64,000 nucleotides of DNA from contig NZ_LDQA01000021.1 in NCBI RefSeq assembly GCF_001475935.1, positions 124,001 to 188,000 of the forward strand. The letters run 5' to 3'. The notes beneath the pieces were generated by a model. That model made no database searches. It had not been told where the DNA came from and worked only from the letters and a program-made list of their open reading frames with translations. The position numbers were made by a program, and so were the translations under genes. Of the stretch, positions 2,546-37,694 are shown piece after piece. This stretch comes from Aureimonas ureilytica. Lineage in GTDB: Bacteria > Pseudomonadota > Alphaproteobacteria > Rhizobiales > Rhizobiaceae. The stretch's first letter is position 1; each line of letters begins with the position of its first letter.

Positions 2546-4129
2546 ATGACCATCCAGGGCGAACTCATCATCGGCCACACGCTGGCCAAGGGAACGGCCG
2601 GCGAGATCTTCGGCGTCGAAGCGGCCAGCGGCCAGCGCATCGAGCCAGCCTTCGGCGGCGCCACCAAGGACGATCTGGAAAAGGCCTGCCGCCTCGCCGA
2701 CGAGGCCTTCGACACCTATCGCGAAACCAGCCTCGAGGATCGCGCCCGCTTCCTTGAAGCCATCGCGGACGAGATCCTGGCGCTGGGCGACGAACTGGTC
2801 GAGCGCTGCTGCCAGGAAAGCGGCCTGCCGCGCCCCCGCGTCGAAGGCGAGCGCGGCCGCACGATGGGCCAGCTTCGCATGTTCGCGGGTGTGTTGCGCG
2901 ATGGCGGCTTCCTCGACGCGCGCGTCGATCCGGCTATGCCCGAGCGCCAGCCCCTGCCGCGCCCGGACCTGCGCCTGCGCAACGTGCCGCTTGGGCCCGT
3001 CGCCGTGTTCGGCGCGTCCAACTTCCCGCTCGCCTTCTCGGTCGCCGGCGGTGACACGGCCTCGGCGCTCGCCGCCGGCTGCCCCGTCGTGGTGAAGGCG
3101 CATTCGGCCCATCCCGGCACGTCGGAACTCGTCGGCCGCGCCGTTCTGGCTGCGGCCCAGCGCTGCAACATGCCCGAGGGCGTGTTCTCGCTTCTGTTCG
3201 ACGCCAGCCGCCAGATCGGCCAGGGCCTCGTCGCCGACCACCGCATCAAGGCCGTTGGTTTCACCGGCTCGCGCAGTGGCGGCACGGCGCTGATGCAGAT
3301 CGCGGCCGCCCGCCCCGAGCCGATCCCGGTCTATGCCGAGATGAGCTCGATCAACCCGGTGATCCTCTTCCCCGGCGCGCTGGCCGCGCGGGCCGAGGCG
3401 ATCGCCAAGGGCTTCGTCGCGTCGCTGACGCTCGGCGCCGGCCAATTCTGCACCAATCCGGGCCTCATCCTCGCCGTGGAAGGCGAGGGGCTGAAGACGT
3501 TCGAGGCCGCCGCCGCCAAGGCGCTGGCCGAGACCTCGGCCGCCGTCATGCTGACGCCCGGCATCTGCAAGTCCTATGCGGGCGGCGTCGCCAAGCTCGC
3601 CGGCCATGCCAAGGTCGAGACGCTCGGCCGGGGCCAGGAAGGCGGCGAGTTGCGCGGCCAGTCGGCGCTCTTCGCGGTCTCGGCTGAAGATTTCCTCTCC
3701 GACGCGCATCTGCAGGAAGAGGTGTTCGGCTCCTCCTCGCTCGTCGTGCGCTGCCGCGACGAGGCGGAACTCGCCAAGGTGATCCAGGGTCTGGAAGGCC
3801 AGCTCACCGCCGCGATCCACATCGCCGACTCCGACCACGCGGCGGCGCGCAAGCTCCTGCCGCTTCTGGAAAAGCGCGCGGGCCGCATCCTCGTCAACGG
3901 CTTCGGCACGGGCGTCGAGGTCTCTCACGCCATGGTCCATGGCGGGCCTTATCCGTCCACGGCCGATGGCCGCTCGACCTCGGTCGGCTCCAAGGCGATC
4001 GAGCGCTTCCTGCGCCCCGTTTCCTATCAGGACCTGCCGGACGCGCTCCTGCCCGACGCGCTCAAGGACGCGAACCCGCTGAAGCTCTGGCGTCGCCAGG
4101 ACGGCAAGCTCGTCGCGCCGAACAGCTGA
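2546..4129 (+). CDS. Aldehyde dehydrogenase (NADP+), 2,5-dioxovalerate / alpha-ketoglutarate semialdehyde dehydrogenase type
   Basis: This 527-residue protein has all core aldehyde dehydrogenase signatures: catalytic Cys302 in [10 protein letters not shown], Glu265 in VYAEMSS, the cofactor-binding FTGSRSGG stretch and the substrate-fold motif [11 protein letters not shown]. Length and these motifs fit the family that oxidises 2,5-dioxopentanoate to 2-oxoglutarate in non-phosphorylative pentose, hexarate or hydroxyproline catabolism. No other gene of such a pathway is nearby, so the physiological substrate is uncertain. A good ribosome site (GGAG) precedes the ATG by 8 bases. The following glycosyltransferase begins 5 bases after its stop but probably has an unrelated function. 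Confidence 0.88.
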
Positions 4130-4134: not shown

Positions 4135-5301
4135 ATGACCGATCTCCAGCCGGTGCAGCCGTTCCGGCTGGAAACGCTTGGGAGCCATGAGGCTCTCACC
4201 CGTGTCGCCCTCCATCGGGGCGGCACGTTCGATGGGGCGGGGGCCGTCGCCATTCTTCCCGCGCGGGACGAGGCGGAGCGGATCGACGCCACCTTGCGCG
4301 CGCTGATGGCCGAGCTTGCGCCGGGCGAAGGCGTCGTCCTCGTGGTCAATGGTTCGACCGACGACACGCTGGCGCGCGCGCTGGCCCTGTTCGAAGCCGG
4401 CGACGCACCGTTTCTCCTTCTCGACGTGAACTGGCAGCCCGGCCGAGGCTCGGCCCCGCTCGCCCGGCGTCTGGCGCTGGACCTCGCCTTCGAACTGTCG
4501 CCACACGCCCATCTCTTCTCGATCGACGCCGATACCGTGGTTCAGCCCGGCTGGCGCGCGGCCTACGAAGCGGAATTCACCGGCGGCGCGGCGCTCGTCT
4601 GCGGGGCCATCGGCTTCGACCCGGCGGAAGCCGCGCTCCTGCCGCCGACCGACGAGGCGGCGGAAACGGTGCTGCGCGAATACCGCGCCGCTTCGCGCGA
4701 GATCGACGCCCGGCTCGACCCCGATCCGCTCAATCCTTGGCCGCATCACGGCAATATCGGCGGCGCGAATTTCGGCCTGCGCGCGGGTGTCTATGGTGCG
4801 GTCGGCGGCCTGCCCGTCACCAGCTTCGGCGAGGACCGCGCGCTCTTGCGCCGCGTGCGCGCGCTCGGGCTGCCCGTGCGGTTCAGCGAGGGACCGCTGG
4901 TCTGGACCTCCTGCCGGCTCGACGGCCGGGCGCGGGGCGGCCTGTCGGACGAGCTGAAGCGCTCGCGCAACGAGGCCGACCCATTGGTGGACGAAGCGCT
5001 GGAGCCGGCCGACGTGCTGGAGCGCCGCATCCGCGCGCGGCTGGCTTTCTCACGGGCCGGCTCGGCGCAAGCGCGCGGAGACGTTCTGTCGGCGCTCGGC
5101 CTGACCGAGGCCGAGATCGAGGCTGTCGAAGTAGAAGCCACGCCCGGCGAAGCCTGGACCCTCGTGGAAGAACTCAGTCCCTTGTTGAAGCGCGAGCGCC
5201 TGCGGCGCTCGCAGCTGGCCACTGAGCTGCCCGCTCTTCTCAAGCTTCTCCAGGCGGTGCGCGAAAGCGCAGCAAGTCCAGCCGGTAGCGATCCCGCCTG
5301 A
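4135..5301 (+). CDS. Glycosyltransferase family 2 protein
   Basis: A 388-residue soluble GT-A-type transferase. The N-terminal half has the nucleotide-sugar fold: AILPARDEAERI as first beta strand, VVLVVNGSTDDT, then the metal-binding motif FSIDADTVV around residue 125-133. A later GEDRALLRRVRALG stretch matches the acceptor-side region of GT2 enzymes. The C-terminal 120 residues are helical and of unknown role. It begins 5 bases after the aldehyde dehydrogenase with no clear ribosome site, suggesting coupled translation. Its 3' end overlaps the convergent PIG-L/methyltransferase gene by 62 bases. Neighbouring genes suggest it takes part in synthesis of a modified glycan; donor and acceptor are unknown. 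Confidence 0.85.
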   Translation: MTDLQPVQPFRLETLGSHEALTRVALHRGGTFDGAGAVAILPARDEAERIDATLRALMAELAPGEGVVLVVNGSTDDTLARALALFEAGDAPFLLLDVNWQPGRGSAPLARRLALDLAFELSPHAHLFSIDADTVVQPGWRAAYEAEFTGGAALVCGAIGFDPAEAALLPPTDEAAETVLREYRAASREIDARLDPDPLNPWPHHGNIGGANFGLRAGVYGAVGGLPVTSFGEDRALLRRVRALGLPVRFSEGPLVWTSCRLDGRARGGLSDELKRSRNEADPLVDEALEPADVLERRIRARLAFSRAGSAQARGDVLSALGLTEAEIEAVEVEATPGEAWTLVEELSPLLKRERLRRSQLATELPALLKLLQAVRESAASPAGSDPA

Positions 5302-6565
5302 TCGAGCGCTCCAGCGTCAGCTTTTCGGCCGCGACCATGCGCAGGAAGTCCGCCGCGTCGTCGCCCGACAGCGGCGTGTCGGTGGGGCCGAGATAGTTGA
5401 CCAGAAGCAGTCCCGCGCCCGGCCGCGACTTGCGGCAGGCGCGAGAGAGCAGCGTCTCGATCTCCGGCTCGGTCAGGAAATAGAGCATTTCCGAGAGGAC
5501 GAGCAGGTCGAAAGGCAGATCGGGGAAGTCGTCCGGCATTCGCCCGACATGGAACTCCAGCCGTCCCGGCGCGCCATGGCGCGCGTTCGCGCGCGCGACG
5601 ATGTTGGGGTCGAGGTCGAAGCCGGTGACCGCAGAGAAGCGGGTGGCGAGCGCGGCCGAGAGATGACCCTCGCCGCAGCCGATCTCGATGGCTTGGCCCC
5701 GCCAGTCGTCGCCGAGGAAATGGATCACGTCCTCGCGCTTCTCGATCTCGTAGGCGCTGTCGCGCGCGCCCCAGGGGTCGTTGTCGCCGCGATAGAGCGT
5801 CTCGAAATGCTCCGCACCCGGCGGCGTACCCGGCCTCATGTGCCAGAACACACATTCGAACGGGCCTTGATGATGCCGCAGGAACCAGTCGGGCAGGGCG
5901 AAGCCTTCCGGGGCGTCCGTCACGATGCCCCCCATCTGGGTTTCATGCCGGGCGATGGCGCGCGCCTTTTCCACGATCGGCGTCTCCACGCGGAACGGAT
6001 GCAACCCCTCGACATCCACCTCCTTGTCCTCGGGGTGACGCAGCGACCAGACGGGATAGGACAGAAGCCGGATATGGGGGCGCAGCCGATGCACGGCCTC
6101 CGCCAGGAGCGCGGCGGCTTCATGGTCCGGGTGCGGGTCGAAAAGCACGGTGGAGGCGAGCGCCGTCGCGCCTGTTCGGTCGCAGAGCGCCGCGACCTTT
6201 TCCGCCGCGCCCGCGAAATCGTCGTGCCAGCGGGATGCGCCGTCGGGGAGGGCGAGGCGCAGCATCTCGGCGGTTTCGCAGCCCAGTTCCGCCATGGCGA
6301 GCGCCTGTTCCTCGCGCCGGCGCGCGGCCAGGCGTTCGGGCGGCCATTCGGCCGAGCCCCGATGCGAGCCCTCGCCATCGGTCAGCGCGACGAGGCCAAC
6401 CGCGCGTCCCGCCTGCGCGGCGGCCAGAAGCAGGCCGGACGCGCCGAGTGCCTCGTCGTCCGGGTGCGGCGCAATGACCACCAGCCCGCCCGCGCCGATC
6501 AGGAGCAGCGGGTCCACGACGGGGGCCACATCGTGGCGGGCGCACCAGTCGCCGTAGCGGCTCAT
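5240..6565 (-). CDS. Bifunctional PIG-L family deacetylase / class I SAM-dependent methyltransferase
   Basis: A 441-residue two-domain protein. Residues 1-230 are a PIG-L/LmbE deacetylase with the zinc motif PHPDDE (33-38) and the second metal His in FDPHPDHEAA; this family removes acetyl groups from N-acetylglucosamine-type amines. Residues 250-441 are a Rossmann methyltransferase with SAM motif AIEIGCGEGHLS near 290 and an acidic FDLDPNI end of strand 2, resembling NodS-type enzymes. The ATG at 6565 was chosen because it overlaps the stop of the upstream flavoprotein gene (ATGA) and starts the conserved domain; the open frame continues upstream without similarity. Deacetylation followed by methylation of the freed amine is a natural guess for the fusion but is inference. 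Confidence 0.87.
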   Translation of the reverse strand: MSRYGDWCARHDVAPVVDPLLLIGAGGLVVIAPHPDDEALGASGLLLAAAQAGRAVGLVALTDGEGSHRGSAEWPPERLAARRREEQALAMAELGCETAEMLRLALPDGASRWHDDFAGAAEKVAALCDRTGATALASTVLFDPHPDHEAAALLAEAVHRLRPHIRLLSYPVWSLRHPEDKEVDVEGLHPFRVETPIVEKARAIARHETQMGGIVTDAPEGFALPDWFLRHHQGPFECVFWHMRPGTPPGAEHFETLYRGDNDPWGARDSAYEIEKREDVIHFLGDDWRGQAIEIGCGEGHLSAALATRFSAVTGFDLDPNIVARANARHGAPGRLEFHVGRMPDDFPDLPFDLLVLSEMLYFLTEPEIETLLSRACRKSRPGAGLLLVNYLGPTDTPLSGDDAADFLRMVAAEKLTLERSIRRDRYRLDLLRFRAPPGEA

Positions 6566-7665
6566 CCGAAAATCTCCGGCAGTCGCGCCGCCAGCCGGCG
6601 CGCATGATCCAACAGCGCGGCATCCGGATTGGCCTGCCGCAGATAGGTTGATAGGTCGCGGATCGGGCGCGCCAAGGGATGGTCTTCCGCAAAGGCCGAA
6701 AGTCCGAGGCCGCGTTCGGCCAGCGCGATCACGGCCAGCCCCGCCGATTCCACCCGCAGCCGCGCGAAAACCGCGAGCGAGGCGGCAAGCTCGGCCTCCT
6801 CTCCGCCCTCCACCGCGCGCGCCGCCGCCTCGACCTGAAGCCGCGCGTCCCGCGCCGCCAGAATGGCTTCGCCGACCCGCGCGCTCTGGAGCGGGTGATC
6901 GAGCCGCCCCGTCTCGCGCAGACCATCCGCCAGCCCGCGCACGATCCGCTCGATCGCGCCGAGCTGCACCGCCGCGCAACGCCAGATGCCGCCCATGAAG
7001 AAGGGCTCGCGGCGATAGTCGTCCGGCCCGCCGAGACGCGCCGAGACGGGAATCTCTAGGCCGTCGAACCGGAACGTGCCCGAGCGCGAGGCGCGCATTC
7101 CGCGCATATTCCAGCTGGAGAAGTCCAGGCGGGAGGGCTCGTCCACATCGATCAGGAGAAGCTGAAGCCGCCCGTCCGCCTCCGTCACCGGAACCAGCGC
7201 CAGCGAAACCCAGCCGAGGCCGGAGGCGTAGCGCTTCGCCCCGGTCAGCCGCAGGCGGTCGCCCTCGATAGGCTCGACCGCAAAGGGCGGACTGCCATCC
7301 GCACCCCAGACGCCAAGCAGCGCGCCGCGCTCGACCCGTGCCCGCACCATCGCCTTCTGATCCGCCCGGCCGAACAGCGCAACGAGTTGCAGCGCGTTGG
7401 CATGGCCCTCGAACAGACGACCGAGGCTGAGATCGACGCTGCCGAGCGCCACGAAGAAGGGCAGCGAGCGCGCGGCCGGGTAGGCATAGGCAAAGCCTGA
7501 CCCTTCGGGGCGCATGGGCGCGGCGAGGCAACCATGCCGGCGCAGGGCCTCCAGTTCGGCCGTGAGATCGGCCTCGTGCCCGTCCGCCCGCGCGGCGGCG
7601 AGAAGCGCGATCTCCGCGAGCGCGCGGAAGGATCCGTCGATGATCTCGCTCGAAAGCTCTTCCAT
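6562..7665 (-). CDS. Acyl-CoA dehydrogenase-like flavoprotein
   Basis: A 367-residue protein with the layout of acyl-CoA dehydrogenases: helical N-terminal domain (1-100), beta middle domain with LLGVWGADGSPP and the TGAKRYASGLGW motif that lines the flavin, and a C-terminal four-helix bundle. It is shorter than fatty-acid-oxidation members (about 380-400) and I cannot place the catalytic Glu, so the substrate may not be an acyl-CoA; relatives act on carrier-bound or sugar-linked substrates. The ATG at 7665 was chosen because the 67 upstream in-frame residues are low complexity. It overlaps the PIG-L/methyltransferase start by 4 bases, forming a two-gene operon. Confidence 0.78.
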   Translation of the reverse strand: MEELSSEIIDGSFRALAEIALLAAARADGHEADLTAELEALRRHGCLAAPMRPEGSGFAYAYPAARSLPFFVALGSVDLSLGRLFEGHANALQLVALFGRADQKAMVRARVERGALLGVWGADGSPPFAVEPIEGDRLRLTGAKRYASGLGWVSLALVPVTEADGRLQLLLIDVDEPSRLDFSSWNMRGMRASRSGTFRFDGLEIPVSARLGGPDDYRREPFFMGGIWRCAAVQLGAIERIVRGLADGLRETGRLDHPLQSARVGEAILAARDARLQVEAAARAVEGGEEAELAASLAVFARLRVESAGLAVIALAERGLGLSAFAEDHPLARPIRDLSTYLRQANPDAALLDHARRLAARLPEIFG

Positions 7666-7873
7666 GGCCGTGAACTCATCTGGTTGGCGCTGACGTCGGA
7701 TGTCGCGCGTCTCGTGATGGACGGGCGAGGTGCCGTCACTGTCTCCGTTTCCCGGAGCCGTGTGCCGGCGCTCGGCGCCCGCGCGGTTGGAGGCGCTGGT
7801 CGACACGGAGTTTGGATCGCTCAAGAAACCTTCGGACAGCCACCGCGATGGACAGCGCCTCACCATGAGCTAG

Positions 7874-8890
7874 ATGCCGCACGGCAATCGCATAGGACTC
7901 ATTTGGATGGCCGGGAAACGACATTCGGAGCACCGGGCGGGCGTTTCGCGCTGTTTCCTGTGCGGCGCACGGCTTTGGGACGCGGCCGGGCGCGATCTGT
8001 CCTGGGGCGAGCTGGTGCGTCCTTTCGCGTTCGCCTGCGGGTCCTGCGGGCTCTTGGTGGATGATCCGGCGGCCGGCGCACCAAGCCTCGCGCATCTCGG
8101 CCGGGCGCTGAAGCCGGGGCTCATCGCGTGTGAGCCCGACGCGACCTACGGGTTTGATGCCTATACGCTACGCTCGGCTGCCACGCTGCACGGGCTCTGG
8201 GCCGAGCCGATGGGCGAAGCGCAGGCCGAGGCGCTGCGCCAACCCCATTCGCCGCTCCCCGGCGCGGCGCATTTGCGCGCGCTCACCGACGGGCCGTCCG
8301 CACCGATCAGCCTCGCCATCCTCTGCCGCGCGGCCGAGCGCGAGGCCGCGCTGGGCTTGGCCCAAACCGCCCGCCTCTGGTGCGACGATGTGGTGATCCT
8401 GCTCGATGGCGAAGGGGCGGGGGAGGACGGCCCCGGCTTACGCCTGCGCCATCGTCCGCTCGCCGGCCATTTCGCTGCCCAGCGCAACGCCGCGCAGGAC
8501 ATGGCGCGCCATGAGTGGGTGCTGCAACTCGACGCCGACGAGACGCTGGAGGAGGGCGTGGCCGAGGCGCTGCCCTATCTCCTGGGGGCGGCCGGGCCAG
8601 ATGTGGTCTCGATCGGCCTGCGGCGCGCCAATCGCGTGGACGGCGTCCTGTCCGACCTCTTTCCCGACACGCAATATCGGCTGAACCGGCGCTTCGTGCG
8701 CTACGAGAACCCCGTGCACGAGCGTCCGGCACGCCCCTGGCAGCGGAGCCTTCTGTTTCTGGGCGGCGGCATCCGGCATCATCTCGGGCGCGCCCATGTG
8801 GAAGCACGCTCCCACCGCTACGAGGCGATGAACCCCGGCGGCGGGCGCTTGTTCGAAGAGAGCGAGCTTCTGCGCCCCTACGAGGCCTGA
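7874..8890 (+). CDS. Glycosyltransferase family 2-like protein with N-terminal zinc-ribbon-like cysteines
   Basis: A 338-residue protein. The first part carries two CxxC pairs (C27/C30 and C55/C58), which look like a zinc ribbon. From about residue 133 a GT2 fold follows: APISLAILCRAAE, a strand ending VVILLDG, AAQRNAAQDMARHEWVLQLDADE with the DxD-type metal motif (LDADE), and a C-terminal RRFVRYENPVHERP segment typical of this transferase class. It is divergent from the flavoprotein operon across about 200 bases and overlaps the convergent GT4 by 13 bases. Role inferred: a sugar transfer in the same glycan pathway. Confidence 0.78.
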   Translation: MPHGNRIGLIWMAGKRHSEHRAGVSRCFLCGARLWDAAGRDLSWGELVRPFAFACGSCGLLVDDPAAGAPSLAHLGRALKPGLIACEPDATYGFDAYTLRSAATLHGLWAEPMGEAQAEALRQPHSPLPGAAHLRALTDGPSAPISLAILCRAAEREAALGLAQTARLWCDDVVILLDGEGAGEDGPGLRLRHRPLAGHFAAQRNAAQDMARHEWVLQLDADETLEEGVAEALPYLLGAAGPDVVSIGLRRANRVDGVLSDLFPDTQYRLNRRFVRYENPVHERPARPWQRSLLFLGGGIRHHLGRAHVEARSHRYEAMNPGGGRLFEESELLRPYEA

Positions 8891-10062
8891 CGGGCCTTGG
8901 CGTAGAGCGCCAATGTTTCCCGGCCCAGCGTGTCGCGGTTGAAGCGACCGGCGGCTTTCAGAGCCGCCGCGCGCAGCGACTGGCGGGTCTCGTCGTTGGT
9001 CAGGATCGGGCGGATGGCGTCGGCCAGCGCCGCGCCGGTGTCGCTCGCCGCCATCAGGCCCGCGCCCGTATCGCCCACGAACTCGCGCCCACTCGCATCC
9101 AGCGCGTTGGCGACCATCGGCCGGCCATAGGCGATGCCCTCCTGATAGACGAGGCCGAAGCTCTCGTAGCGCGAAGGGGCCAGAACCGCGTGCGCCCCGG
9201 CATATTCCACCGCCAGCGCCTCTTCCTGCATCCGCCCCAGCGCCTTGACGCGCCGGCGCGCCGGCTCGGGCAGATCGGCCGGGACATCGCCCTCCGGCAC
9301 GCCGACGAGGCGCACTTCGAAGTCCGGGATCGCGCCGCGATCGACCTCCGCGCCGAGGATCGCGGCCGCTTCCATGATCATGTCGAAGCCCTTGCGATGC
9401 TCCGCCCGGCCGACGAAAAGAAGCCGCAGCGGCTCGCCCGACCTGGCCTCGGGATAGGCGGCGGCCTTCGCCCGCGCCAGCGTGCCGGGCGGCAGGCTGA
9501 GGCCCACCACCGCATGGGGCTGGAGGCCGGTGAGGCCGTATTCCGCCGTGATGCGGCGGGCATGTTCGCCCGTGTTCGAGATGAGCCCGGCGCTCCCCTT
9601 GGCCTGCCGGATTTCCAGCCGGTCGGCCGCCCAGCCGTCGATCCGGTCCCGAGCGCTGGTGGCGGGGTCGCGCGAGAAGGCGGCGGGCGTCGAGTTGCGC
9701 GTGACCAGCGCGAAGTCGTGCCGCCCGGTCAGAAGCGCGGCCGGGGCGTACCAGTTGGTCGCCTCCACCACGTCGAAGGGCCGGGCGGCATGTTCGGCGA
9801 GAACCGCGCGGCGAAAGGCGAGCGGGGCGGCCAGATGCCCCGCGCCGCCATAGAGCCGCAGACGCCCGAGACCGCTCGCCTTGTCGATGGCGCAGCCGAC
9901 GATGGACACCCCGCCCGCCGTCTCGCGCCCCGTGCGGTCGAGCGTGAAGAGCGTGACGTCGCAGCCGGCCTGAACGAGGCTTTCGGCGATCTCGCGGGCC
10001 GCCGTGGACAGGCCGCTCGGCGAAGGCGGATAGTCCCAGGCGAGGAGGGCGGTTCGCATCAT
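8878..10062 (-). CDS. Glycosyltransferase family 4 protein
   Basis: A 394-residue GT-B transferase. The N-terminal domain opens with ALLAWDYPPSPSGLSTAAREI, a typical acceptor-domain start with a glycine-rich loop. The C-terminal donor domain has LRLLFVGRAEHRKGFDMI and the EX7E-type signature region APSRYESFGLVYQEGIAYGRP. The start overlaps the stop of the preceding GT4 (ATGA at 10059-10062), so the two are translationally coupled. Donor sugar is unknown. Confidence 0.88.
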   Translation of the reverse strand: MMRTALLAWDYPPSPSGLSTAAREIAESLVQAGCDVTLFTLDRTGRETAGGVSIVGCAIDKASGLGRLRLYGGAGHLAAPLAFRRAVLAEHAARPFDVVEATNWYAPAALLTGRHDFALVTRNSTPAAFSRDPATSARDRIDGWAADRLEIRQAKGSAGLISNTGEHARRITAEYGLTGLQPHAVVGLSLPPGTLARAKAAAYPEARSGEPLRLLFVGRAEHRKGFDMIMEAAAILGAEVDRGAIPDFEVRLVGVPEGDVPADLPEPARRRVKALGRMQEEALAVEYAGAHAVLAPSRYESFGLVYQEGIAYGRPMVANALDASGREFVGDTGAGLMAASDTGAALADAIRPILTNDETRQSLRAAALKAAGRFNRDTLGRETLALYAKARQAS

Positions 10063-11168: not shown

Positions 11169-13247
11169 ATGTTCTTGCTTCATGTCGCCCTGCAGGGCTG
11201 CCTGCGCGCCGAGAATGTCGCTTATGGTCTGACGGCCGATACGGGGGGCCATATCCGCTATCTGCTCGATCTGGTTCGCGCGTCCTCCACGGCAGGTCCC
11301 GTGCGCCGCACGGTGATCGCGACGCGGGGGTTCGTGAGCGAACTGGGGGACGAGTACGCGCCAGCGCCGGTGCGCGAGGAATCCGGCATCGAAATTCTGC
11401 GCTTGGCGAGCGCGCGGCCCGATTATCTGCCCAAGGAGGATTTGTGGGCCGAGACGGAAAGCTTCGCTGAAGGTTTGATCGCCTGGATCGAGGCGCAGGA
11501 CGAGCGCCCTGACCTGATCCATGCCCATTATGCCGATGCCGCCAGCGTCGCCGCCATCGTGGAAGATCGGCTCGGCATTCCCTTCGTCTTTACCGCCCAT
11601 TCGCTCGGCCGGGTGAAGGCCGAGGTGATGGGCGCGCGCGCCGCCGACGTGCCGCATCTGGACAAGCGCATCGAGATCGAGGAAGCGGCCATCGCGCGCG
11701 CCTCGTTGGTCATCGCCTCCTCGCGCGACGAGGCGGAGGTGCAATATGCCGGCTACCGCGAGTACGACCCCGGCCGCATCCGCATTCTGCCGCCCGGCAG
11801 CGATCTCGAGCGCTTCGGCGCGGCGACCGCCTGCCCCAAGGTCGAAGCCTCCATCAACCGCTTCCTGAACGAGCCGGACAAGCCGGTGTTGCTGGCCCTG
11901 GCACGGCCCGTCGCCAAGAAGAACCTCTGCGCCCTCGTGCGTGCCTATGGCGAAAATGCCGAACTGCGCCAGCGCGCCAATCTCGTGATCATGGCCGGCA
12001 ACCGGCAGGACCTCTCAAGCCTCGACGGCGAAATGTCCGGCGAAATCCGCGAGATCCTGTGCCTCATCGATCGCTACGATCTCTACGGCCATGTTGCCTA
12101 TCCCAAGACGCACCGGCCCGACGATGTGGCCGCGATCTACGCCTATGCGCGGGATCGGCGCGGCATCTTCGTCAATCCCGCCCTCAACGAGCCCTTCGGC
12201 CTGACGCTGCTGGAAGCCTCGGCGGTCGGCCTGCCGCTGGTGGCCACCGACAGCGGCGGCCCGAACGACATCATCGAGATGTGCGGCAATGGCGAGCTGG
12301 TGGACCCGCAATCCACGCAGGCCATCGCCGAAGGGGCGCTGCGCATTCTGCGCGACCCCGCATTGTGGGATCGCTATGCGGCGGCGGGCGCCAAGGCTGT
12401 CGCGGCCTATGACTGGAGCCGGCACGCCGCGCGCTATCATGAGCTGGTGCAGTCTCTGCTGGCCCGCCGGCAGGCGTCCAGCGCCAGGGTCGAACAGCTA
12501 CTGATCTGCGATATCGACAACACGCTAGTCGGCTGCGACATCGGCGTGCAGCGTTTCACGCAATGGCGCAGCGAGCAGGACGCCCTGGTTTTCGGGGTCG
12601 CCACCGGCCGCTCGTTCCACAGCGCCATGTCGATTCTGGAGCAGCGCAACGCGCCGCGCCCGCAGGTGATGATCACATCGGTCGGCTCGGAAATCTATCA
12701 TCTCGACAGCAACGGAACGACTTATACCGCCGATCCGGACTGGCGTGACACCGTGCGCCGGGGCTGGAACCGCCAAGCGGTCCATCTCGCCCTGCGCGGG
12801 CTGCCGGGCCTCGTGCCGCAGGCCGCGCTGGAACAGCGGGCTTTCAAGCTCTCCTATTTCAGCGATGGCGACCGCGAGATCACGTCTCGCGTGCGCGAGC
12901 GACTGGAACTGGCGGGCCTGCGCTGCTCGGTGATCCATAGCCACGGGCGCTATCTCGATATCCTGCCCGTGCGCGCCTCCAAGGGCACGGCGGTGGACTT
13001 CGTGCGCCGGCGCTATGGCCTGCCCGAAAACGCGGTCTTCGTCGCCGGGGATTCCGGCAACGACATCGAGATGCTGCGCACGATCCCGCAGGCGATCATC
13101 GTCGCCAATTTCTCCGACGATCTGGCGAGCCTGCCGTCGCTGAAGCATTCCTATGTCGCGAGCGCCACTTATGCGCGCGGTGTCATCGAAGGCGTTCTCC
13201 ACTTCCGCAACAAGGCGCGCGCGGCATGGCCATCATCAGTGCTCTGA
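11169..13247 (+). CDS. Sucrose-phosphate synthase-like GT4 fused to HAD-family sugar phosphatase
   Basis: A 692-residue fusion. Residues 1-435 resemble sucrose-phosphate synthase: YGLTADTGGHIRYLLDL near the start, RPVAKKN in the donor domain and NPALNEPFGLTLLEASAVGLP. Residues 440-692 are a HAD phosphatase like sucrose-6-phosphate phosphatase, with motif 1 LLICDIDNTLVG (about 446-455) and motif 4 FVAGDSGNDIEML. Such fusions make and dephosphorylate sucrose phosphate in one protein; mannosylfructose-phosphate synthase is a close alternative in alphaproteobacteria. The ATG at 11169 is preferred over the upstream TTG because GGAAAGGGAGA lies 6 bases before it. The product could be a compatible solute or a glycan precursor. 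Confidence 0.83.
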   Translation: MFLLHVALQGCLRAENVAYGLTADTGGHIRYLLDLVRASSTAGPVRRTVIATRGFVSELGDEYAPAPVREESGIEILRLASARPDYLPKEDLWAETESFAEGLIAWIEAQDERPDLIHAHYADAASVAAIVEDRLGIPFVFTAHSLGRVKAEVMGARAADVPHLDKRIEIEEAAIARASLVIASSRDEAEVQYAGYREYDPGRIRILPPGSDLERFGAATACPKVEASINRFLNEPDKPVLLALARPVAKKNLCALVRAYGENAELRQRANLVIMAGNRQDLSSLDGEMSGEIREILCLIDRYDLYGHVAYPKTHRPDDVAAIYAYARDRRGIFVNPALNEPFGLTLLEASAVGLPLVATDSGGPNDIIEMCGNGELVDPQSTQAIAEGALRILRDPALWDRYAAAGAKAVAAYDWSRHAARYHELVQSLLARRQASSARVEQLLICDIDNTLVGCDIGVQRFTQWRSEQDALVFGVATGRSFHSAMSILEQRNAPRPQVMITSVGSEIYHLDSNGTTYTADPDWRDTVRRGWNRQAVHLALRGLPGLVPQAALEQRAFKLSYFSDGDREITSRVRERLELAGLRCSVIHSHGRYLDILPVRASKGTAVDFVRRRYGLPENAVFVAGDSGNDIEMLRTIPQAIIVANFSDDLASLPSLKHSYVASATYARGVIEGVLHFRNKARAAWPSSVL

Positions 13248-14191: not shown

Positions 14192-15346
14192 TCAGCCGGC
14201 GACGACGCTCAGCGCCGGTGCGGCGCTTGTCTTGGCATCTGCCTCCGTAGCCCCGGCCCAAAGCTCGTCGCAGAGCCCTTCCAACCAGCCGGCAGCCTTG
14301 CGGGCGGCCTCCGCGTCGTAGAGCGAGGCGATGGCCTGCGTCTCCAACCCGCGCGCGCGCTCCAGCAGCGCCTGCCAGCCGATGAGGTCGCCCGGCCAGG
14401 CCGGCGCGCTGACCGCCGCGCCGAGCCGCACCAAGGCTTCGGCCTTGCGGGTCTGCTCGCCGAAATAGCGCCATTCCGGCATCACCACCAAGGGGCGGCC
14501 GACCCGCGCGATCTCATGCACCGTGTTGTCGCCCGCCGAGGCGATCACGATATCGGCGGCGGCCAGATAATCGGTGACGCCGCGCACCCAGCCGAGCTCC
14601 TGGCAATTGCTGAAATCCGTCTCATGCCCTTCGCGGTGCGTCGGGCCGAGCACCAGCCAGAGCGCGTCCGGCGCGGCGCGGGCGGCGACCGTGAGCGGGG
14701 CATAGGGTGTCCCGCTGCCCCCGCCGCCCGTCAGCACCACGACGATCTCGTGGGTCGGATCGAGGCCGAGCTTGGCGCGCGCCTCGGCCTTGCCCGGCAC
14801 GGCATCCAGCGTCGTGCACAGGCCGCCGGAATAGAAGGTCTTGGCGCGCAGGCGCGCGGGATAGTCGTCCTGCTCCATGCGCTCGTCGAAGGGCGCGAGC
14901 ATCCCGACGGCCGCCTCGTAGGCGCCGACATGGCCGATATCCCCCCGGTCGCCATGCATTCTGATCTGGATCGAGGGCACGCTCGCCGCGCGCGCCAGGA
15001 GGCCGATCTCGCAGGAGACATCCACCACGAAGAGTCCGGTGTCGCGGTCGTCCAGATGGTCGAGGATGGTGCGCATGGTCCGGCGCATTTCCGACACGCC
15101 GAGCGGCACGCAATGCATCACGCTCGGCGTCGGCTCGGCATAGAGGCGGGGCGTCGGCACGCCTGCGCCGATCATGTTGGGCAGGGGCACGATCTCGATG
15201 TCGCGCCCGAACCCGTCGAACAGATGCGGCCCCGCCGTCAGCACCGAGACCGGCCGGTCCTTCGCAAATTCCGACACGAGCGCCATGGTGCGGTTGGCGT
15301 GTCCACGCCCCTGATGATGCACGAAGAAGGAGATGGGTTTCTTCAA
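14192..15346 (-). CDS. MurG-like (GT28 family) glycosyltransferase
   Basis: About 384 residues with the GT28 plan. The N-terminus KKPISFFVHHQGRGHANRT has the glycine/His loop of MurG- and diacylglycerol-glucosyltransferase-like enzymes. The C-terminal domain has VVVLTGGGGSGTPYAPL, followed by DYLAAADIVIASAGDNTVHEIARVGRPLVVMPEWRYFGEQ, the UDP-sugar-binding region. The start is uncertain: the domain begins at a TTG (15346); an ATG at 15409 would add 21 residues of unconvincing sequence. It converges on the GT2 at 13226-14092 and is divergent from the OmpR-type regulator. Confidence 0.8.
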   Translation of the reverse strand: MKKPISFFVHHQGRGHANRTMALVSEFAKDRPVSVLTAGPHLFDGFGRDIEIVPLPNMIGAGVPTPRLYAEPTPSVMHCVPLGVSEMRRTMRTILDHLDDRDTGLFVVDVSCEIGLLARAASVPSIQIRMHGDRGDIGHVGAYEAAVGMLAPFDERMEQDDYPARLRAKTFYSGGLCTTLDAVPGKAEARAKLGLDPTHEIVVVLTGGGGSGTPYAPLTVAARAAPDALWLVLGPTHREGHETDFSNCQELGWVRGVTDYLAAADIVIASAGDNTVHEIARVGRPLVVMPEWRYFGEQTRKAEALVRLGAAVSAPAWPGDLIGWQALLERARGLETQAIASLYDAEAARKAAGWLEGLCDELWAGATEADAKTSAAPALSVVAG

Positions 15347-26194: not shown

Positions 26195-27427
26195 TCAGTC
26201 GCTGTCGGAGGCGCGCGGCTTGTCCGGTGCCGTGTTCGCCGCAGGACGGTGGCTCAGACGGCGGAGCTTGCCGCGCCAGGAGCGCAGCCGGCCATAAAGC
26301 GCCCCGTTGCTTTTCAGTCGCGCGCGCAGTTCTTCGGCGCCCTTGTCGGCCAGCGCCATGGCGTGGCCGCGCAAGGAATAGACCTCTTCCAGACGGAAGA
26401 AGGGCCGACTCAAAGCCCCCACGCTTTGCTTGTAGCTCTGGCCACCGACCGAGAAGTCGAAATAGGTGACACCCTCGCGGCAGGCCTGTTCGATGGCCAG
26501 GCTGATCATGAAGAGGCCGGGCGCGGTGTTGCGTGCGCGCTCGTCATCCATGGCGATCAGAATGCCATGGGCCACGTCCCGATGGACCAGGTTCAGCATC
26601 AGCGCCAGGCAATCGCCATCCAGTTTGAGGCCGATAACCTGCGCCGAGCCGCCGGAAAGTCCCTCGTGAGCCGCCTGCCGGTAGAACTGGCCGTAGGCCG
26701 GGCTCGACAGAATGTCGAAGCGCCCGAGTTTACGAAACCGTGCGAGCCGCAGATGCAGCAGCTCGTCCATCATGGCGTCCACCTCGGCCGGCGTTCGAGC
26801 CGCTTCGAAGCTCAGCGTGCCCAACGCCTCCAGCCGTCGCCGCGTCTTGCCCACCTGCTTGACGAAGGATGGGCGGAAGACCCTGGCCGCCAGCGTGTCG
26901 GCGGGGCCGGGTGTTGCCATGCCGGACACCGACAGCGCCGAGTCTTGAATTCCATCGACGAGCGCCAGCGGGTTGGGAATGCCGGGCACGATCTCATGCG
27001 GGATCGAATCGAGACGCAGCCGGTCCGCCTTCGGCAATGCGGCACGGACCGCCAGCCAGAGGCGCCGGGCCTCTTCGGCCGTGTAGGCGACGGGCTGGGC
27101 AAGGACCGGCGCGGTATAGTCGCATACGCCCGCGCTGAGCGGCACGATCTCCGTCAGGCCTGCCTTGCGCCTGATCGCCAGCGGCAGGAGCAGGATCGGC
27201 GCGCCGCTCGCCGCGTCGCGGAGTTCCACGATGAGAGGTTCGGACTTGTCCAGCGCCAGAAGGTGTTCCACCACCAGCGCCATCCAGCCATAGCGCTGAT
27301 GGGCGTTGCAGGCGCCCTGCGCTTCGCAGGCGAGCCAGAGATCGCGAACCGATGCGAGATCGCGGTGAAGCCATGCGACGGGTGTCACGGCGACTGGCAC
27401 GCTTGAGGGAAGGGAACGCTCATCCAT
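26195..27427 (-). CDS. GNAT-fold acyl/acetyltransferase (BioF2-like, CelD/FemAB superfamily)
   Basis: A 410-residue protein of the type often found in exopolysaccharide loci. The N-terminal region includes HQRYGWMALVVEHLLALDKSEPLIVELRD; the C-terminal GNAT domain (about 170-340) has FVKQVGKTRRRLEALG, a split HILIAMDDERARNTAPGLFMISLAIEQACREGVTYFDFSVGGQSYKQ pattern characteristic of the BioF2-like family. It probably adds an acyl group to a sugar intermediate. It overlaps the flippase gene by 8 bases at its start and is last in a three-gene operon (GT4, flippase, acyltransferase). Confidence 0.82.
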   Translation of the reverse strand: MDERSLPSSVPVAVTPVAWLHRDLASVRDLWLACEAQGACNAHQRYGWMALVVEHLLALDKSEPLIVELRDAASGAPILLLPLAIRRKAGLTEIVPLSAGVCDYTAPVLAQPVAYTAEEARRLWLAVRAALPKADRLRLDSIPHEIVPGIPNPLALVDGIQDSALSVSGMATPGPADTLAARVFRPSFVKQVGKTRRRLEALGTLSFEAARTPAEVDAMMDELLHLRLARFRKLGRFDILSSPAYGQFYRQAAHEGLSGGSAQVIGLKLDGDCLALMLNLVHRDVAHGILIAMDDERARNTAPGLFMISLAIEQACREGVTYFDFSVGGQSYKQSVGALSRPFFRLEEVYSLRGHAMALADKGAEELRARLKSNGALYGRLRSWRGKLRRLSHRPAANTAPDKPRASDSD

Positions 27428-28694
27428 GCGATCGGCCCGAGAGGAAGCGGAGGGAGAAGGGGCGGCCGGCCTCGCGCGGGGCGAGGCGACGGCTGACGGC
27501 GGTCCAGGAGAGAACGGCCACCAGAATCTCGGACGCGGCGGCCCCCGCCAGCACCCAGTCCGGCGGAGCCAGCAGAAGCAGCGCCACGATCAAGGCCATT
27601 CCGAAAGTGGCCGCGATGCCGGTCGTCAGCGCGACCGTGCCGAAATCACCCAGTGATTCCAGCGTGATGCGCGGCATGACGTAGAGCATGGTGGTGAAGT
27701 AGATCGCCCAGGAAAACAGCCCGATCAGCCAGCCGTCGGCATGGGCGAGAACGTCGGATTTCACGAAGGGCAGAACCGCCAGAACCAGCCCGCCATAGGC
27801 AAGGCCGACCAGCCCGAGCCCCAGCGTCCACAAGCCCATCAGCCGCCAGACAGCGGCATCGTCCCGCCCGACGAGACGCGCGATTTCGGGCTGCACCATA
27901 TTGGCGATGGCACCCGCCACGATGCGCAGCGGCGTGAAGAAGACGAGCACGGCCGCGATCGGCGCATAGGCGGCGGGGCCGGCGAAGCTTGCCACCAAGA
28001 GCGCCATGGCTTGGCCTTGAAGCGTCACCGTGGTCGCGCTCAGCGCCGACCAGCGCACGGAGCGCCAGAGGCCGAGCCAGCGCCGGCGCATACTGGCGCG
28101 CAGCGTGAAGCGGATCGGCCGGCGCATTCCCAAGAGCATGATGGCGACGCCGAGCGCGTTGGTCACGGCGAGCGCCAGAAAGGTCTCGTGCAGAAGGTCG
28201 CCCCCGCGCCAGACCACGAAACCCGTGGCGAGAACGCTGAAAGCCGTGAAGCCGAGATCGCTCAGTGCCACGAGGCCCGGCCGGCCCAGCGCGAAGTTGC
28301 TGACGCGCAGATGGCTGCGGAACGACCAGAATAGCACGAAGATGCCGACCGAGCCGATCTCGGTGGCGTCCCAGGCGAGCATCAGGAGAACCGTCACGAG
28401 GCTGATCGCGACCGACAGGACGAAAGCCCCCGACGCGAAGCTCACGTCATAGGCATGGGCGCGGTGACGCCCGCTTTCCCGGCCGATCCAGATCGAGGCG
28501 GGAACGGCGGTGAGCGAGCGCACATAGGTGATCGCGACGCCGCCCATGACCATGGCGAGCGCGAACAGCCCGTAGCTTTCGGCCGACAGGCGATGCAGGA
28601 GGAGGATGTTCAGGGCGAAATGAAAGGCGCTCTGCATCGCCTCGCCGCCGATCATCATCACGAGGCGGCGCGCCAGCGGGAGGAGGCGTCTCAT
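27420..28694 (-). CDS. Polysaccharide flippase-like membrane protein (Wzx/MATE-like)
   Basis: A 424-residue integral membrane protein with about 12 hydrophobic helices and short basic loops, matching the oligosaccharide flippase (MOP) superfamily. It should move lipid-linked repeat units across the inner membrane. The short N-terminal segment RLLPLARRLVMMIGGEAMQSAFHFALNILLL is typical of the first helix. The start overlaps the preceding GT4 gene by 4 bases and its stop is within the acyltransferase gene, so it is in an operon with both. Confidence 0.8.
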   Translation of the reverse strand: MRRLLPLARRLVMMIGGEAMQSAFHFALNILLLHRLSAESYGLFALAMVMGGVAITYVRSLTAVPASIWIGRESGRHRAHAYDVSFASGAFVLSVAISLVTVLLMLAWDATEIGSVGIFVLFWSFRSHLRVSNFALGRPGLVALSDLGFTAFSVLATGFVVWRGGDLLHETFLALAVTNALGVAIMLLGMRRPIRFTLRASMRRRWLGLWRSVRWSALSATTVTLQGQAMALLVASFAGPAAYAPIAAVLVFFTPLRIVAGAIANMVQPEIARLVGRDDAAVWRLMGLWTLGLGLVGLAYGGLVLAVLPFVKSDVLAHADGWLIGLFSWAIYFTTMLYVMPRITLESLGDFGTVALTTGIAATFGMALIVALLLLAPPDWVLAGAAASEILVAVLSWTAVSRRLAPREAGRPFSLRFLSGRSHG

Positions 28695-29842
28695 GCCGCG
28701 CTCCGCCTGGAAGGGGCCGACGCCTGCCGGCGTGCCAGATTGGCGCTGAGAACGCCTGTCAACGCCTCGGCCGCCGTCGCTTGGGAGAAGAGCCGCTCGA
28801 ACCGCGTGCGGCCGGCCTCAGCGAAGGCGGGGAGAGGGGAGGGGTCGGCGAGGATCGCCTCGATCCGCGCGGCGAGCGCGGCCGGATCGCCCGGCGGCAC
28901 GACCCAGCCGGTGCGCCCATCCTCCACGGTTTCGCCGAGGCCGCCAATATCGGAGACGATCGGCGGGCGGCCATAGGCCTGCGCCTCGATCGCCACGCGC
29001 CCCAGCGACTCGGGCAAACGCGAAGGAACCGCCACGATGTCGGCCCAGCGGTAATGCTCGGCCGGGTCCGGCACGAAGGGAAGCAGGCGAACGACGGAGT
29101 CCAGCCCCGCTGCCGTGATGCGCCGCTCCAGCTCGATCTCGGGCGCGCGCGTCTCGAAGGCGCTGCCGACGATGCGCACCGACAGGCGCGCGCGTAACAT
29201 CGGCGGCAGGAGGGCGAGCGCGTCGAGCAGGACTTCCTGCCCCTTGATGCGGTTGATGCGCCCCAGCATCAGAAGATGAAGCGGGCCTTCGGCGGTGGCC
29301 TTGACCGGCTGCGTGTCGGCCGCCAGCGCCACGCCATTATAGATCACGTGGCTCCGTTGGCCCGCGAGGCCGGGATAGGTGCGCTTTGTCGCCTGCGAGT
29401 TGAAGATGATCTCCGCCCCGCTCCAGCGCAGGAGGGCGCGGAGCACCTTCAACGCCCCGCCTTCGGGGATTTCGTGCACATGGATGATCGTCTTGGCCTT
29501 GAACAGGCGAGCGACCAGCGTGTGGTCGAAGACCACGGCGGTGTTGATATAGACGAGGTCGGCCGCGCGCAGCCGCTTCAGGGCGCGCCAGAGCGCGCGG
29601 GGCAGGTCGATCGCGGCGGTCGCGATCAGCTGTGGCAGCGAATGCCGGCGCAGGACCCAGAGCGGCTCGATCGCAGGCGCGAAGCCTTCCTTGCGCAGCG
29701 CCTCGGCGAGCGGCCCTTCGCGCGGGAGCACGATTTCGATCTCGGCATGGGGAAAGGCGGAACGGATCGCGCGCAGGCTCTCGATGAAGCTGCGGTCCGA
29801 CCCATAGAGCTCGTAGCCTTGATGAATGCAGGAAATGCGCAT
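28691..29842 (-). CDS. Glycosyltransferase family 4 protein
   Basis: A 383-residue GT-B enzyme beginning MRISCIHQGYELYGSDRSFIESLRAI, a GT4 acceptor-domain start with a GSDR loop. The donor domain has PLHLLMLGRINRIKGQEVLLDAL and IVAVPSRLPESLGRVAIEAQAYGRPPIV, with the retaining-enzyme EX7E pattern. The ATG at 29842 is chosen over an upstream start since the domain begins exactly there. It is the first gene of the minus-strand operon and divergent from the Wzc-like gene across about 165 AT-richer bases that probably hold both promoters. Confidence 0.88.
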   Translation of the reverse strand: MRISCIHQGYELYGSDRSFIESLRAIRSAFPHAEIEIVLPREGPLAEALRKEGFAPAIEPLWVLRRHSLPQLIATAAIDLPRALWRALKRLRAADLVYINTAVVFDHTLVARLFKAKTIIHVHEIPEGGALKVLRALLRWSGAEIIFNSQATKRTYPGLAGQRSHVIYNGVALAADTQPVKATAEGPLHLLMLGRINRIKGQEVLLDALALLPPMLRARLSVRIVGSAFETRAPEIELERRITAAGLDSVVRLLPFVPDPAEHYRWADIVAVPSRLPESLGRVAIEAQAYGRPPIVSDIGGLGETVEDGRTGWVVPPGDPAALAARIEAILADPSPLPAFAEAGRTRFERLFSQATAAEALTGVLSANLARRQASAPSRRSAA

Positions 29843-30008
29843 GGCCCATCGCCCCTGCGCCCGGCGGTCGCCCACCCGGCGCTGGTCCCCCGCCACATGC
29901 CCGAAAGGAAGGTCGGAACATGCAGCCGCAGGACAATCATAATCAGAATTTAGCCATTCCGATCTAATCCAAGAGCGGTGCAGATTGTGTGAACGACGTG
30001 GGTGGGCA

Positions 30009-32108: not shown

Positions 32109-32109
32109 C

Positions 32110-33453
32110 ATGTCGTTGCGCGGAGCGCCCTCCGCCGGCCTGCCGCGCGCAGGGCTCGGGGCGCACGCGCGCGAGGCGAGCCCTGCGCGCCTCGACCAAC
32201 TCTCGCGTTGGGGCATTCTCGCCATCGTCCTGGCGCTGTTCACCCTGTCGGGCGGCGTCCTCTGGTATGCCGGCTATAATTACGACGGGCTGATGGGCAG
32301 CGCGCTGACCAAGCTGCACCCCGCCACCTATCTGACGCTCTGTGTGCTCGGCTGGCGCGCCTGCGTCTTCGGCAATCCGTTCGGCTATCTCGCCCATGTC
32401 GGGCGGTTGCGGCCCGCGTCGCTGCTTCTGGTGCTGATCTCGCTGGGCGCGCTCGTCTCGGTGATTCTGCGCCAGCGCCCCAACATGGCCGGGCTGGTGG
32501 ACACGTTCCTCGCCGCCGGCCTCTTGGGCCTGCTTCTGGCGGACATGGACGAGCGGCTGCGCCGACAGATGGAGATGCTGCTTCACGGCGTGATGACCGT
32601 GAACGGACTGATGGCGCTGTTCGAATTCGCCACCAAGATCCTGATCTTTCCCTATCGATTCGACGGCGAGACCTTTCCGACCGATCTACGATCCGCCGCC
32701 CTTCAAGGTCACCCGCTGGTCAACGCGACGCTGACGGCCTGCTACGTGCTGGCGCTGATGAGCGGCGCGCGGCAGATGTCCACCCCGGTTCGCCTCGGCC
32801 TCATCCTTCTGCAACTGGCCGCCATGGTGGCCTTTGGCGGACGCACCGCCATCGTCACGGTTCTGGCGCTCGGCCTCACCTACGGGCTCTGGCATAGCTT
32901 CGGGATGGTTCGGCGTCGGCGCATTCATCTGATGGCGGCGGCGCTGATTCTCCTGGGGCTCTGTCTGGTGCCGGTGGCGCTGGCCGTTCTGATCTCGGGC
33001 GGCTTCTTCGACGATCTGCTCGGCCGCTTCGTGTCGGACGGCGGCAGCGCCAATGCACGCGTCGAGATGTTCGGCCTGTTCCAGCATTTTTCGCTGCCCG
33101 ATCTTCTGATCGGCCCCGATGTCGAACTTCTGGAAAGCCTTCGGCGCATTTCGGGCCTTGAATGGGGCATCGAGAATCCGATCATTCGCATGATGCTCTA
33201 TCAGGGGGCCTTCTTCATGGCTCTGATGTTCGTCGGCTTCGCCCTCTTCATGCGCGAGCTGGCGCGGGGCCGGGCGGGAAGCTGGCTGCCGATGATCGCT
33301 TGGCTGATCCTGATCAACGGTTCGGAGAGCTTGGCCTCGAAAACGACGCTCATGTCGAAATTCGCGGTGATACTTCTCTGCCTTTACCGAACAGGAGAGC
33401 GGGACCGATCGATGGTTTCCCCTCTTCAGCCCCGTCCCGTCATCAGGCGCTGA
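32110..33453 (+). CDS. Membrane protein resembling VpsF / O-antigen polymerase-ligase family
   Basis: A 447-residue protein with about ten membrane helices and a long periplasmic loop (about 180-215 and 300-350), the plan of Wzy-type polymerases and WaaL ligases. The segment LRSAALQGHPLVNATLTACYVLAL resembles the VpsF family of exopolysaccharide loci, and AFGGRTAIVTVLALGLT carries the conserved Arg after a Gly pair seen in this superfamily. It begins 1 base after the copolymerase stop, so they are co-transcribed. It probably polymerises lipid-linked repeat units in the periplasm. Confidence 0.8.
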   Translation: MSLRGAPSAGLPRAGLGAHAREASPARLDQLSRWGILAIVLALFTLSGGVLWYAGYNYDGLMGSALTKLHPATYLTLCVLGWRACVFGNPFGYLAHVGRLRPASLLLVLISLGALVSVILRQRPNMAGLVDTFLAAGLLGLLLADMDERLRRQMEMLLHGVMTVNGLMALFEFATKILIFPYRFDGETFPTDLRSAALQGHPLVNATLTACYVLALMSGARQMSTPVRLGLILLQLAAMVAFGGRTAIVTVLALGLTYGLWHSFGMVRRRRIHLMAAALILLGLCLVPVALAVLISGGFFDDLLGRFVSDGGSANARVEMFGLFQHFSLPDLLIGPDVELLESLRRISGLEWGIENPIIRMMLYQGAFFMALMFVGFALFMRELARGRAGSWLPMIAWLILINGSESLASKTTLMSKFAVILLCLYRTGERDRSMVSPLQPRPVIRR

Positions 33454-33642
33454 GCGAGATCATCGGCGTCTGCGATAGTTGGTGGAATGGCCAAGCCCTT
33501 CGATATGCTGGGCTCTCAGAAGCTGATGGCAGAAAGAATACCGCGCATGGGTGATCTTTAACCTGCTTCCGTTAGCGTCACTGATAAATCACAAGAGAGT
33601 GAGCGGATCGGAGGCTGATGCCTCGATAGCCGCTTGCTCTCG

Positions 33643-35151: not shown

Positions 35152-35180
35152 CCTGGATTGTCCAACGAAGCTTGAAGCCC

Positions 35181-36371: not shown

Positions 36372-36519
36372 TGAGGACGCACAACAGGCCGGGGCTTGCG
36401 GTGCGCCGGCCGCACGCGCAGACATGACGCAACGACATGTCGGGCGTGGCCCGCTTCCTTCCGATCCTCGCCGGGGCTCTGGCGAGCCCAGCCCATTCCT
36501 GCCTCCAGAAAGCGGACCC

Positions 36520-37677: not shown

Positions 37678-37694
37678 CCAAAGGACGCCGAGCG

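Follow-up and report, generated by a model that had tools for sequence, protein, structure and literature searches.

Which molecule is modified by a locus that joins a predicted deacetylase and a methyltransferase in one polypeptide and places them next to a flavoprotein and several glycosyltransferases? The question is raised by Aureimonas ureilytica, in which such a locus lies within a stretch of 64,000 nucleotides (contig NZ_LDQA01000021.1, positions 124,001-188,000, forward strand), hereafter called the window, whose own numbering is used below. Our tentative answer, which we consider well possible but stop short of calling likely, is that the locus is the Aureimonas variant of a mobile, probably cytosolic module of four enzymes that modify an amino sugar, and that this module is a member of the general stress response in many of its hosts. 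The core genes of the window are:

4135-5301, plus strand: GT2a, a GT2-like glycosyltransferase of 388 amino acids, core gene
6565-5240, minus strand: fusion of a PIG-L domain with an S-adenosylmethionine (SAM)-dependent methyltransferase, 441 amino acids; predicted deacetylase N-terminal, NodS-like methyltransferase C-terminal
7665-6562, minus strand: flavoprotein of the acyl-CoA dehydrogenase (ACAD) fold, 367 amino acids, probably a reduced-flavin monooxygenase; the frame is open upstream to an ATG at 7866
6565-6562, minus strand: ATGA overlap of 4 bases between the flavoprotein stop and the fusion start, read from the sequence

The genes for GT2a and the fusion are convergent and their 3' ends share 62 bases, and the ATGA overlap likely serves translational coupling of flavoprotein and fusion. 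The layout described in the initial annotation, a fusion gene, an ACAD-like gene overlapping it by 4 bases and two flanking GT2 genes, is present in full.

A core of four genes and its distribution

The conserved unit consists of GT2a, the ACAD-like flavoprotein, the PIG-L protein and the NodS-like methyltransferase. It was observed in DNA fetched around flavoprotein genes, which yielded 80 + 60 = 140 loci, or 127 after near-identical ones had been merged, among which 11 are fragments shorter than 9 kb. The methyltransferase is found in 116 of the merged loci, GT2a in 100, PIG-L in 94 and all four genes in 86; the idea that these genes work together, which the initial annotation had tied to their co-occurrence in other genomes, thus survives. 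In the commonest layout, seen in 49 of the 140 loci, GT2a is followed by the flavoprotein, PIG-L and methyltransferase genes, and in a further 39 the latter three face GT2a, as in the window. A start codon that permits a 4-base overlap is present at 63 of 94 flavoprotein/PIG-L junctions and at 53 of 96 PIG-L/methyltransferase junctions. Since the arrangement recurs across genera, it is not due to chance.

Among 297 genomes of the same order, relatives of the flavoprotein (E <= 1e-15) occur in 28, belonging to 10 of 123 genera, and the 28 matches listed are all at 2e-43 or better. The neighbourhoods of the other 27 of these genomes hold the methyltransferase in 27, GT2a in 24 and PIG-L in 21 cases; a full-length match to the fusion is found in two of the 297, the window's own genome included. 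A scan of named genomes gave at least 559 flavoprotein relatives, and the nearest among the best 80, which were taken further, belongs to A. ureilytica (85% identity). Family-wide searches (E <= 1e-50) found the flavoprotein in 55 of 200 genomes of one family and in 16 of 119 of another; these appear to be the Acetobacteraceae and the Sphingomonadaceae, where the flavoprotein seems to coincide with records of Gluconacetobacter, Elioraea and Novosphingopyxis. A class-wide draw contained it in just 6 of 385 genomes, and the module is therefore patchy.

Hosts include Methylobacterium, Sphingomonadaceae, Rhodobacterales, acetic acid bacteria and Deinococcus. The flavoprotein is also present in 43 plasmid records, among them those of Sulfitobacter (13), Deinococcus (6) and Paracoccus (5), and the complete core lies on each of the five plasmid regions inspected: those of Jiella pelagia (typed as conjugative), Deinococcus gobiensis, Deinococcus sp. 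AJ005, Sulfitobacter sp. D7 and Bradyrhizobium japonicum. The five plasmid records label parts of the core as acyl-CoA dehydrogenase, PIG-L deacetylase, SAM-dependent methyltransferase or glycosyltransferase, and a pathway is named in none of them. In the Deinococcus loci, the flavoprotein is followed by a glycosyltransferase and a UDP-galactopyranose mutase. Some genomes of the Methylobacterium type (G117, G196) carry PIG-L at a second locus together with glycosyltransferases.

The deacetylase, the methyltransferase and GT2a

Residues 29-157 of the fusion match the PIG-L family PF02585 (1.1e-21; 78.1 bits against a cut-off of 28.2), and residues from about 290 to 385 match a class I SAM methyltransferase domain (PF13649, 1.2e-14). 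The fusion contains the motifs PHPDDE and PHPDH, and H34, D36, D37, E38, H145, D147 and H148 are invariant in an alignment of 24 sequences; all of these except E38 form a set that includes the metal ligands. The hits of a profile of 24 PIG-L relatives, namely TT1542, chitobiose deacetylases, BshB, teicoplanin-type deacetylases and MshB, are of the amino-sugar deacetylase kind. By sequence, this part can be assigned to the PIG-L/LmbE deacetylases, and its deacetylase role is a prediction.

The methyltransferase part scores above the curated threshold of the Pfam NodS family (PF05401, 34.7 bits, cut-off 24), which is matched by all 27 methyltransferases of the module family at E <= 0.001. NodS structures are among the top fold matches of this part of the fusion model (predicted local distance difference test, pLDDT, 92.2; predicted template modelling score, pTM, 0.91), with template modelling scores by target of up to 0.80. 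With 38 bits, the fusion stays far under the cut-off of 300 bits of the NCBIfam NodS equivalog NF041650, and we therefore classify the methyltransferase from its sequence as NodS-like rather than as NodS. The deacetylase and methyltransferase calls of the initial annotation are thus borne out by the domain matches and the conserved motif residues, and its analogy with NodS by the Pfam matches of the relatives and the structural comparison.

PIG-L and methyltransferase are encoded in one frame in four of the 99 loci that hold both: three of these come from Aureimonas, and the fourth is L208 from family f64. The protein of L208 (8150-9409) has 419 residues and both motif sets, and its gene is followed by those for GT2a and the flavoprotein. 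Since fused genes occur both in Aureimonas and in family f64, the sequences suggest that the fusion arose more than once or was spread. The view that the fusion itself is the essential novelty was rejected, as it is rare and three of its four cases come from Aureimonas. A further fused copy (L067, G100:C1:1940000-1958000) is accompanied by GT2a and, partly rearranged, by glycosyltransferases and a synthase of the accessory type found in the window; the same genome carries a second, unfused and complete module (L045).

GT2a is a GT2-like protein of weak classification: its matches to the GT2 families of Pfam fall just below the cut-off, and D131-A132-D133 and E233-D234 are invariant in an alignment of 21 members.

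The flavoprotein as a candidate oxygenase

The match of the window's flavoprotein to Pfam is itself sub-threshold (18.3 bits vs 22.4), and its ACAD fold is given by the family profile and by a confident model (pLDDT 91.4). With the family profile, MsuC and DszC/TdsC take the first five places among solved sequences (E-values of 8e-21 to 5e-20), acyl-CoA dehydrogenases rank next, and the amino-sugar nitrososynthases, which are only distantly similar, follow lower down (3mxl, 5.7e-13; DnmZ, 1.4e-12).

The glutamate of the YEGT-type motif, which lies near the C-terminus, is the catalytic residue of canonical acyl-CoA dehydrogenases; some subfamilies use a glutamate at another position. Within RDARIA-x-IYEG(T/A)NG, this motif is found in two dehydrogenase-like proteins that the same genome encodes, and a third has VEGAN. 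In the window's flavoprotein the motif is absent: at the RD anchor it reads RDLSTYLRQANPD, as opposed to RDARIAPIYEGTNG and RDARIAQIYEGANG in L223 and L225, which belong to this genome too (the anchor sets the register, since the MAFFT alignment is gapped there, and the YEGT position alone is compared). The THTLHDP-type C-terminal motif of MsuC and SfnB is likewise absent from the flavoprotein, which has a conserved (T/F)Y/F-x-RQxxxD stretch instead.

Because the YEGT-type motif is replaced and the best profile relatives are oxygenases, an oxygenase is favoured, and the flavoprotein is probably a reduced-flavin monooxygenase. The label of a fatty-acid acyl-CoA dehydrogenase was rejected on account of the replaced motif; of the acyl-CoA-dehydrogenase-like gene of the initial annotation, the fold stands, whereas the profile lies closer to group D monooxygenases and the motif is missing. 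A review (PMC7347517) discusses AlnG of alanosine biosynthesis, an ACAD-like protein with a proposed role in N-hydroxylation.

The flavoproteins of two Deinococcus plasmid loci (L217:6579-8927 and L218:6690-9053) have about 400 extra N-terminal residues. This extension has no Pfam match, a weak NCBIfam match to GH35 in one of the two copies (E 7e-4) and, in the one copy searched, no match among solved structures.

Stress genes and EcfG-type promoters around the module

Ten of the recurrent clusters of neighbouring genes in 111 clustered loci were annotated with Pfam, the counts being raw, with duplicates unmerged and without a random-locus baseline. They comprise a catalase (18 loci), a manganese catalase (11), LigD_N (11), two DUF892 groups (7 each) and DUF421 (8), as well as a short-chain dehydrogenase (19), a Crp-type regulator (16), a zinc alcohol dehydrogenase (12) and a polyketide-cyclase-like protein (7). 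On the plasmids, a catalase adjoins the core in Sulfitobacter, a catalase and Dps lie nearby in Deinococcus, and Ku and LigD are found in Bradyrhizobium.

Since neighbours of the catalase, LigD and DUF892 types recur, the general stress response of alphaproteobacteria was considered. For Sphingomonas melonis Fr1, GGAAC-N17-20-GTT has been published as the motif recognised by EcfG, the sigma factor of this response (PMC6599016). Ahead of the leading genes of the module, 17 of 106 regions of the named set contain the motif (1.57 expected), as do 16 of 92 regions of a second set (1.54 expected), compared with 0-3 occurrences of control patterns in both sets. Across 183 upstream regions of the 127 merged loci, GGAAC-N17/18-GTT gives 33 sites where 2.9 are expected, 9 with spacer 17 (1.96 expected) and 24 with spacer 18 (0.93 expected). 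The peak is sharp, as each of 28 other spacers between 4 and 33 gives 0-4 sites; the expectation allows for base composition and not for kinship of the hosts, and several of the hits come from Ancylobacter. In two loci (L115, L146), the facing GT2a and flavoprotein units each have an EcfG-type site of their own.

In the same S. melonis study (PMC6599016), to the extent that its text was available, #3505-#3509 are EcfG-dependent glycosyltransferase genes, whose identity with genes of the module could not be shown; the passages found of the Caulobacter SigT paper (PMC3073932) do not show the module.

Accessory genes of the window

The core of the window is flanked by further genes:

2546-4129: aldehyde dehydrogenase, ending 5 bases ahead of GT2a
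7874-8890, plus strand: GT2b, accessory GT2-like protein with an N-terminal CxxC...CxxC ribbon (PF00535, E 5.9e-05, 23.5 bits, cut-off 23.3)
8878-10062, minus strand: GT4a, accessory glycosyltransferase (PF00534, 2.3e-20), also in L067, L070 and L072
10059-11111, minus strand: GT4b, accessory glycosyltransferase that is part of the extended cluster (PF00534, 2.1e-20), family in 11 of 31 loci including the window
11172-13247, plus strand: accessory two-domain protein resembling sucrose-phosphate synthase/phosphatase (TIGR02472, 3.1e-127; S6PP, 1.6e-62), also in L067 and L070
13226-14092, plus strand: GT2c, accessory, galactosyltransferase-related (PF02709, 2.3e-09), family in 10 of 31 loci including the window
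14192-15346, minus strand: accessory GT28-like glycosyltransferase (PF04101, 1.2e-07), family in 11 of 31 loci including the window

The two-domain protein reaches 425 bits with TIGR02472 (cut-off 576) and stays under both NCBIfam cut-offs. Clustering placed members of the GT2b family in the window, L070, L072 and L067 alone, and L216 was added by position and ribbon. The ribbon precedes the glycosyltransferase domain in all five copies examined, though the flanking residues diverge. The two GT2 genes of the initial annotation, one with a zinc-ribbon-like N-terminus, are therefore present, but GT2b does not belong to the conserved core. A unit of five genes was rejected, because neither GT2b nor the aldehyde dehydrogenase is conserved alongside the core.

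At some distance (26195-38969), the window contains a separate polysaccharide-type cluster that encodes a GNAT protein, a GT4 glycosyltransferase, a Wzz/GNVR protein, a DUF1972 glycosyltransferase, a GH5 protein and a protein with a GINT1_N domain (glucosamine inositolphosphorylceramide transferase). Two tandem tRNA-Arg (acg) genes lie at 42048-42124 and 42484-42560, with about 360 bases between them.

A proposed pathway and its alternatives

The observed enzyme families and folds, the conserved linkage of the genes and the promoter enrichment in relatives are compatible with the following scheme. GT2a would transfer an N-acetylhexosamine to a small acceptor, from which PIG-L would take off the acetyl group, and the NodS-like methyltransferase would methylate the freed amine. 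The flavoprotein, acting as a reduced-flavin monooxygenase, would oxidise the amine or a neighbouring carbon; oxygenation seems likelier than desaturation, since by profile its nearer relatives are the group D monooxygenases, ahead of the acyl-CoA dehydrogenases. In Aureimonas, deacetylation and methylation would take place on one polypeptide, and the adjoining extra glycosyltransferases may elaborate the product. Substrate and step order are part of this proposal, as are N-methylation, oxygenation and the nature of the product, for which we envisage a protectant or redox metabolite that is small and soluble, as opposed to a polymer of the cell surface. It is tempting to go further and to speculate that the module makes an N-methylated, N-oxygenated amino-sugar glycoside, which would represent a new class of stress-induced metabolites of low molecular weight in alphaproteobacteria and Deinococcus, a counterpart of mycothiol, bacillithiol and ergothioneine; in this specific form, we regard the idea as unlikely.

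Several observations weigh against the proposed module. The flavoprotein stands without any other core gene in the fetched DNA of 11 of the 140 loci, and L067 holds fusion and GT2a but no flavoprotein. All four genomes of genus g32 (G028, G107, G138, G166; loci L056, L059, L060, L065) keep GT2a, flavoprotein and methyltransferase, and no PIG-L match was found anywhere in these genomes. Deacetylation by PIG-L is thus not always needed, and under the scheme the amine of g32 must presumably be free from the outset or be freed by another enzyme. In searches by fold, dehydrogenases and oxygenases tie as matches of the flavoprotein.

As to the stress response, most copies of the module have no exact EcfG site, and when the remaining genes of these islands serve as the control, the enrichment is modest (16 of 215 vs 39 of 971, P 0.046), although many of the 39 control hits look like stress genes, for instance Ku and catalase, by their first residues. 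An attempt to place the window itself under EcfG control failed: no exact motif with spacers of 16-18 lies at the module in the window or in its closest relatives, L070-L072, and one-mismatch candidates are scattered. One of these, at 3766 (plus strand), falls within the aldehyde dehydrogenase gene, 369 bases ahead of GT2a, and is shared by the window and L070. In the window's genome, NepR was not detected and PhyR is marginal (29.5 bits vs a cut-off of 27).

The best-surviving alternative, which we nevertheless consider improbable, is that the module decorates a surface or secreted glycan, with PIG-L and methyltransferase acting on a lipid-linked or exported oligosaccharide. Such a role would fit the extra glycosyltransferases that flank the module in the window, of which the GT4b, GT28-like and GT2c families each recur in 10 or 11 of 31 loci, the glycosyltransferase and UDP-galactopyranose mutase added in Deinococcus, and the Wzz-type polysaccharide cluster located separately at 26-39 kb of the window. 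However, matches to families of transporters, exporters, flippases or polymerases are absent from the core, for which no transmembrane prediction was run, and the ten annotated neighbour families include catalases, LigD_N and DUF892 but no envelope-polymer gene. Because no transporter was matched and the setting is one of stress, we lean towards a small internal compound, and on the same grounds we depart from the secreted or surface glycan of the initial annotation; a glycan product is a possible alternative in view of the extra glycosyltransferases.

It is also unlikely, in our estimate, that the genes form a small-molecule pathway (a natural product or a thiol-like cofactor) in which the ACAD-like protein acts as a dehydrogenase and yields, for example, an imine or enamine. 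The top five profile matches of the flavoprotein are oxygenases, and the YEGT-type motif of the dehydrogenases of the same genome is replaced in it. There is little to be said for a third view, according to which the genes share no pathway and are co-mobile passengers of stress islands. The patchy distribution (6 of 385 class genomes) and the carriage on plasmids would agree with passengers, but gene overlaps are frequent, the order is conserved in many surroundings, and PIG-L and methyltransferase are fused in two separate lineages. A nodulation-like or signalling lipo-oligosaccharide is very improbable despite the NodS-like methyltransferase and the chitobiose-deacetylase-like PIG-L, as Deinococcus, Sulfitobacter and acetic acid bacteria are among the hosts, the deacetylase is a PIG-L protein with a fold that differs from that of NodB, and NodA gave 0 hits in the window's genome, as it likewise did in the control genomes.

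Comparison with known systems

Each part of the core belongs to a known family. In the literature searched under the gene combination, EcfG regulon membership and the flavoprotein class, as far as its text was available and supplementary tables aside, we recognised no account of the module, of its combination with this flavoprotein, of its spread, of its stress promoter or of a place in the EcfG regulon. If the proposed module is real, a widespread gene set whose members are at present labelled one by one, as "acyl-CoA dehydrogenase", "PIG-L family deacetylase" and either "SAM-dependent" or "nodulation S" methyltransferase, forms one pathway, which is part of the alphaproteobacterial general stress response and is also found in stress-tolerant Deinococcus.

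During the synthesis of Nod factors, deacetylation by NodB is followed by N-methylation by NodS. The module resembles this system in that a NodS-family methyltransferase is paired with a deacetylase whose action would expose the amine beforehand, but differs from it by the PIG-L type of the deacetylase, the added flavoprotein and its presence in Deinococcus and other non-rhizobial hosts. The flavoprotein shares its fold, its best profile similarity and the absence of a YEGT-type motif with the group D flavin monooxygenases (MsuC, DszC and TdsC, and the nitrososynthases KijD3 and DnmZ), from which it is set apart by an identity of 17-21% in structural alignments and by the replacement of the THTLHDP-like motif of MsuC/SfnB. 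With the EcfG (PhyR-NepR) regulon, the module has in common the promoter signature in many relatives and the stress genes in its neighbourhood; Deinococcus is not known to have this system. Mycothiol and bacillithiol are made by a glycosyltransferase and a PIG-L deacetylase (MshA-MshB and BshA-BshB). Unlike these pathways, the module has a GT2-like instead of a GT4 core partner, a methyltransferase and a flavoprotein, and no thiol-adding ligase was seen; like them, it pairs a glycosyltransferase with a PIG-L protein, an arrangement that there builds a small amino-sugar glycoside tied to oxidative stress.

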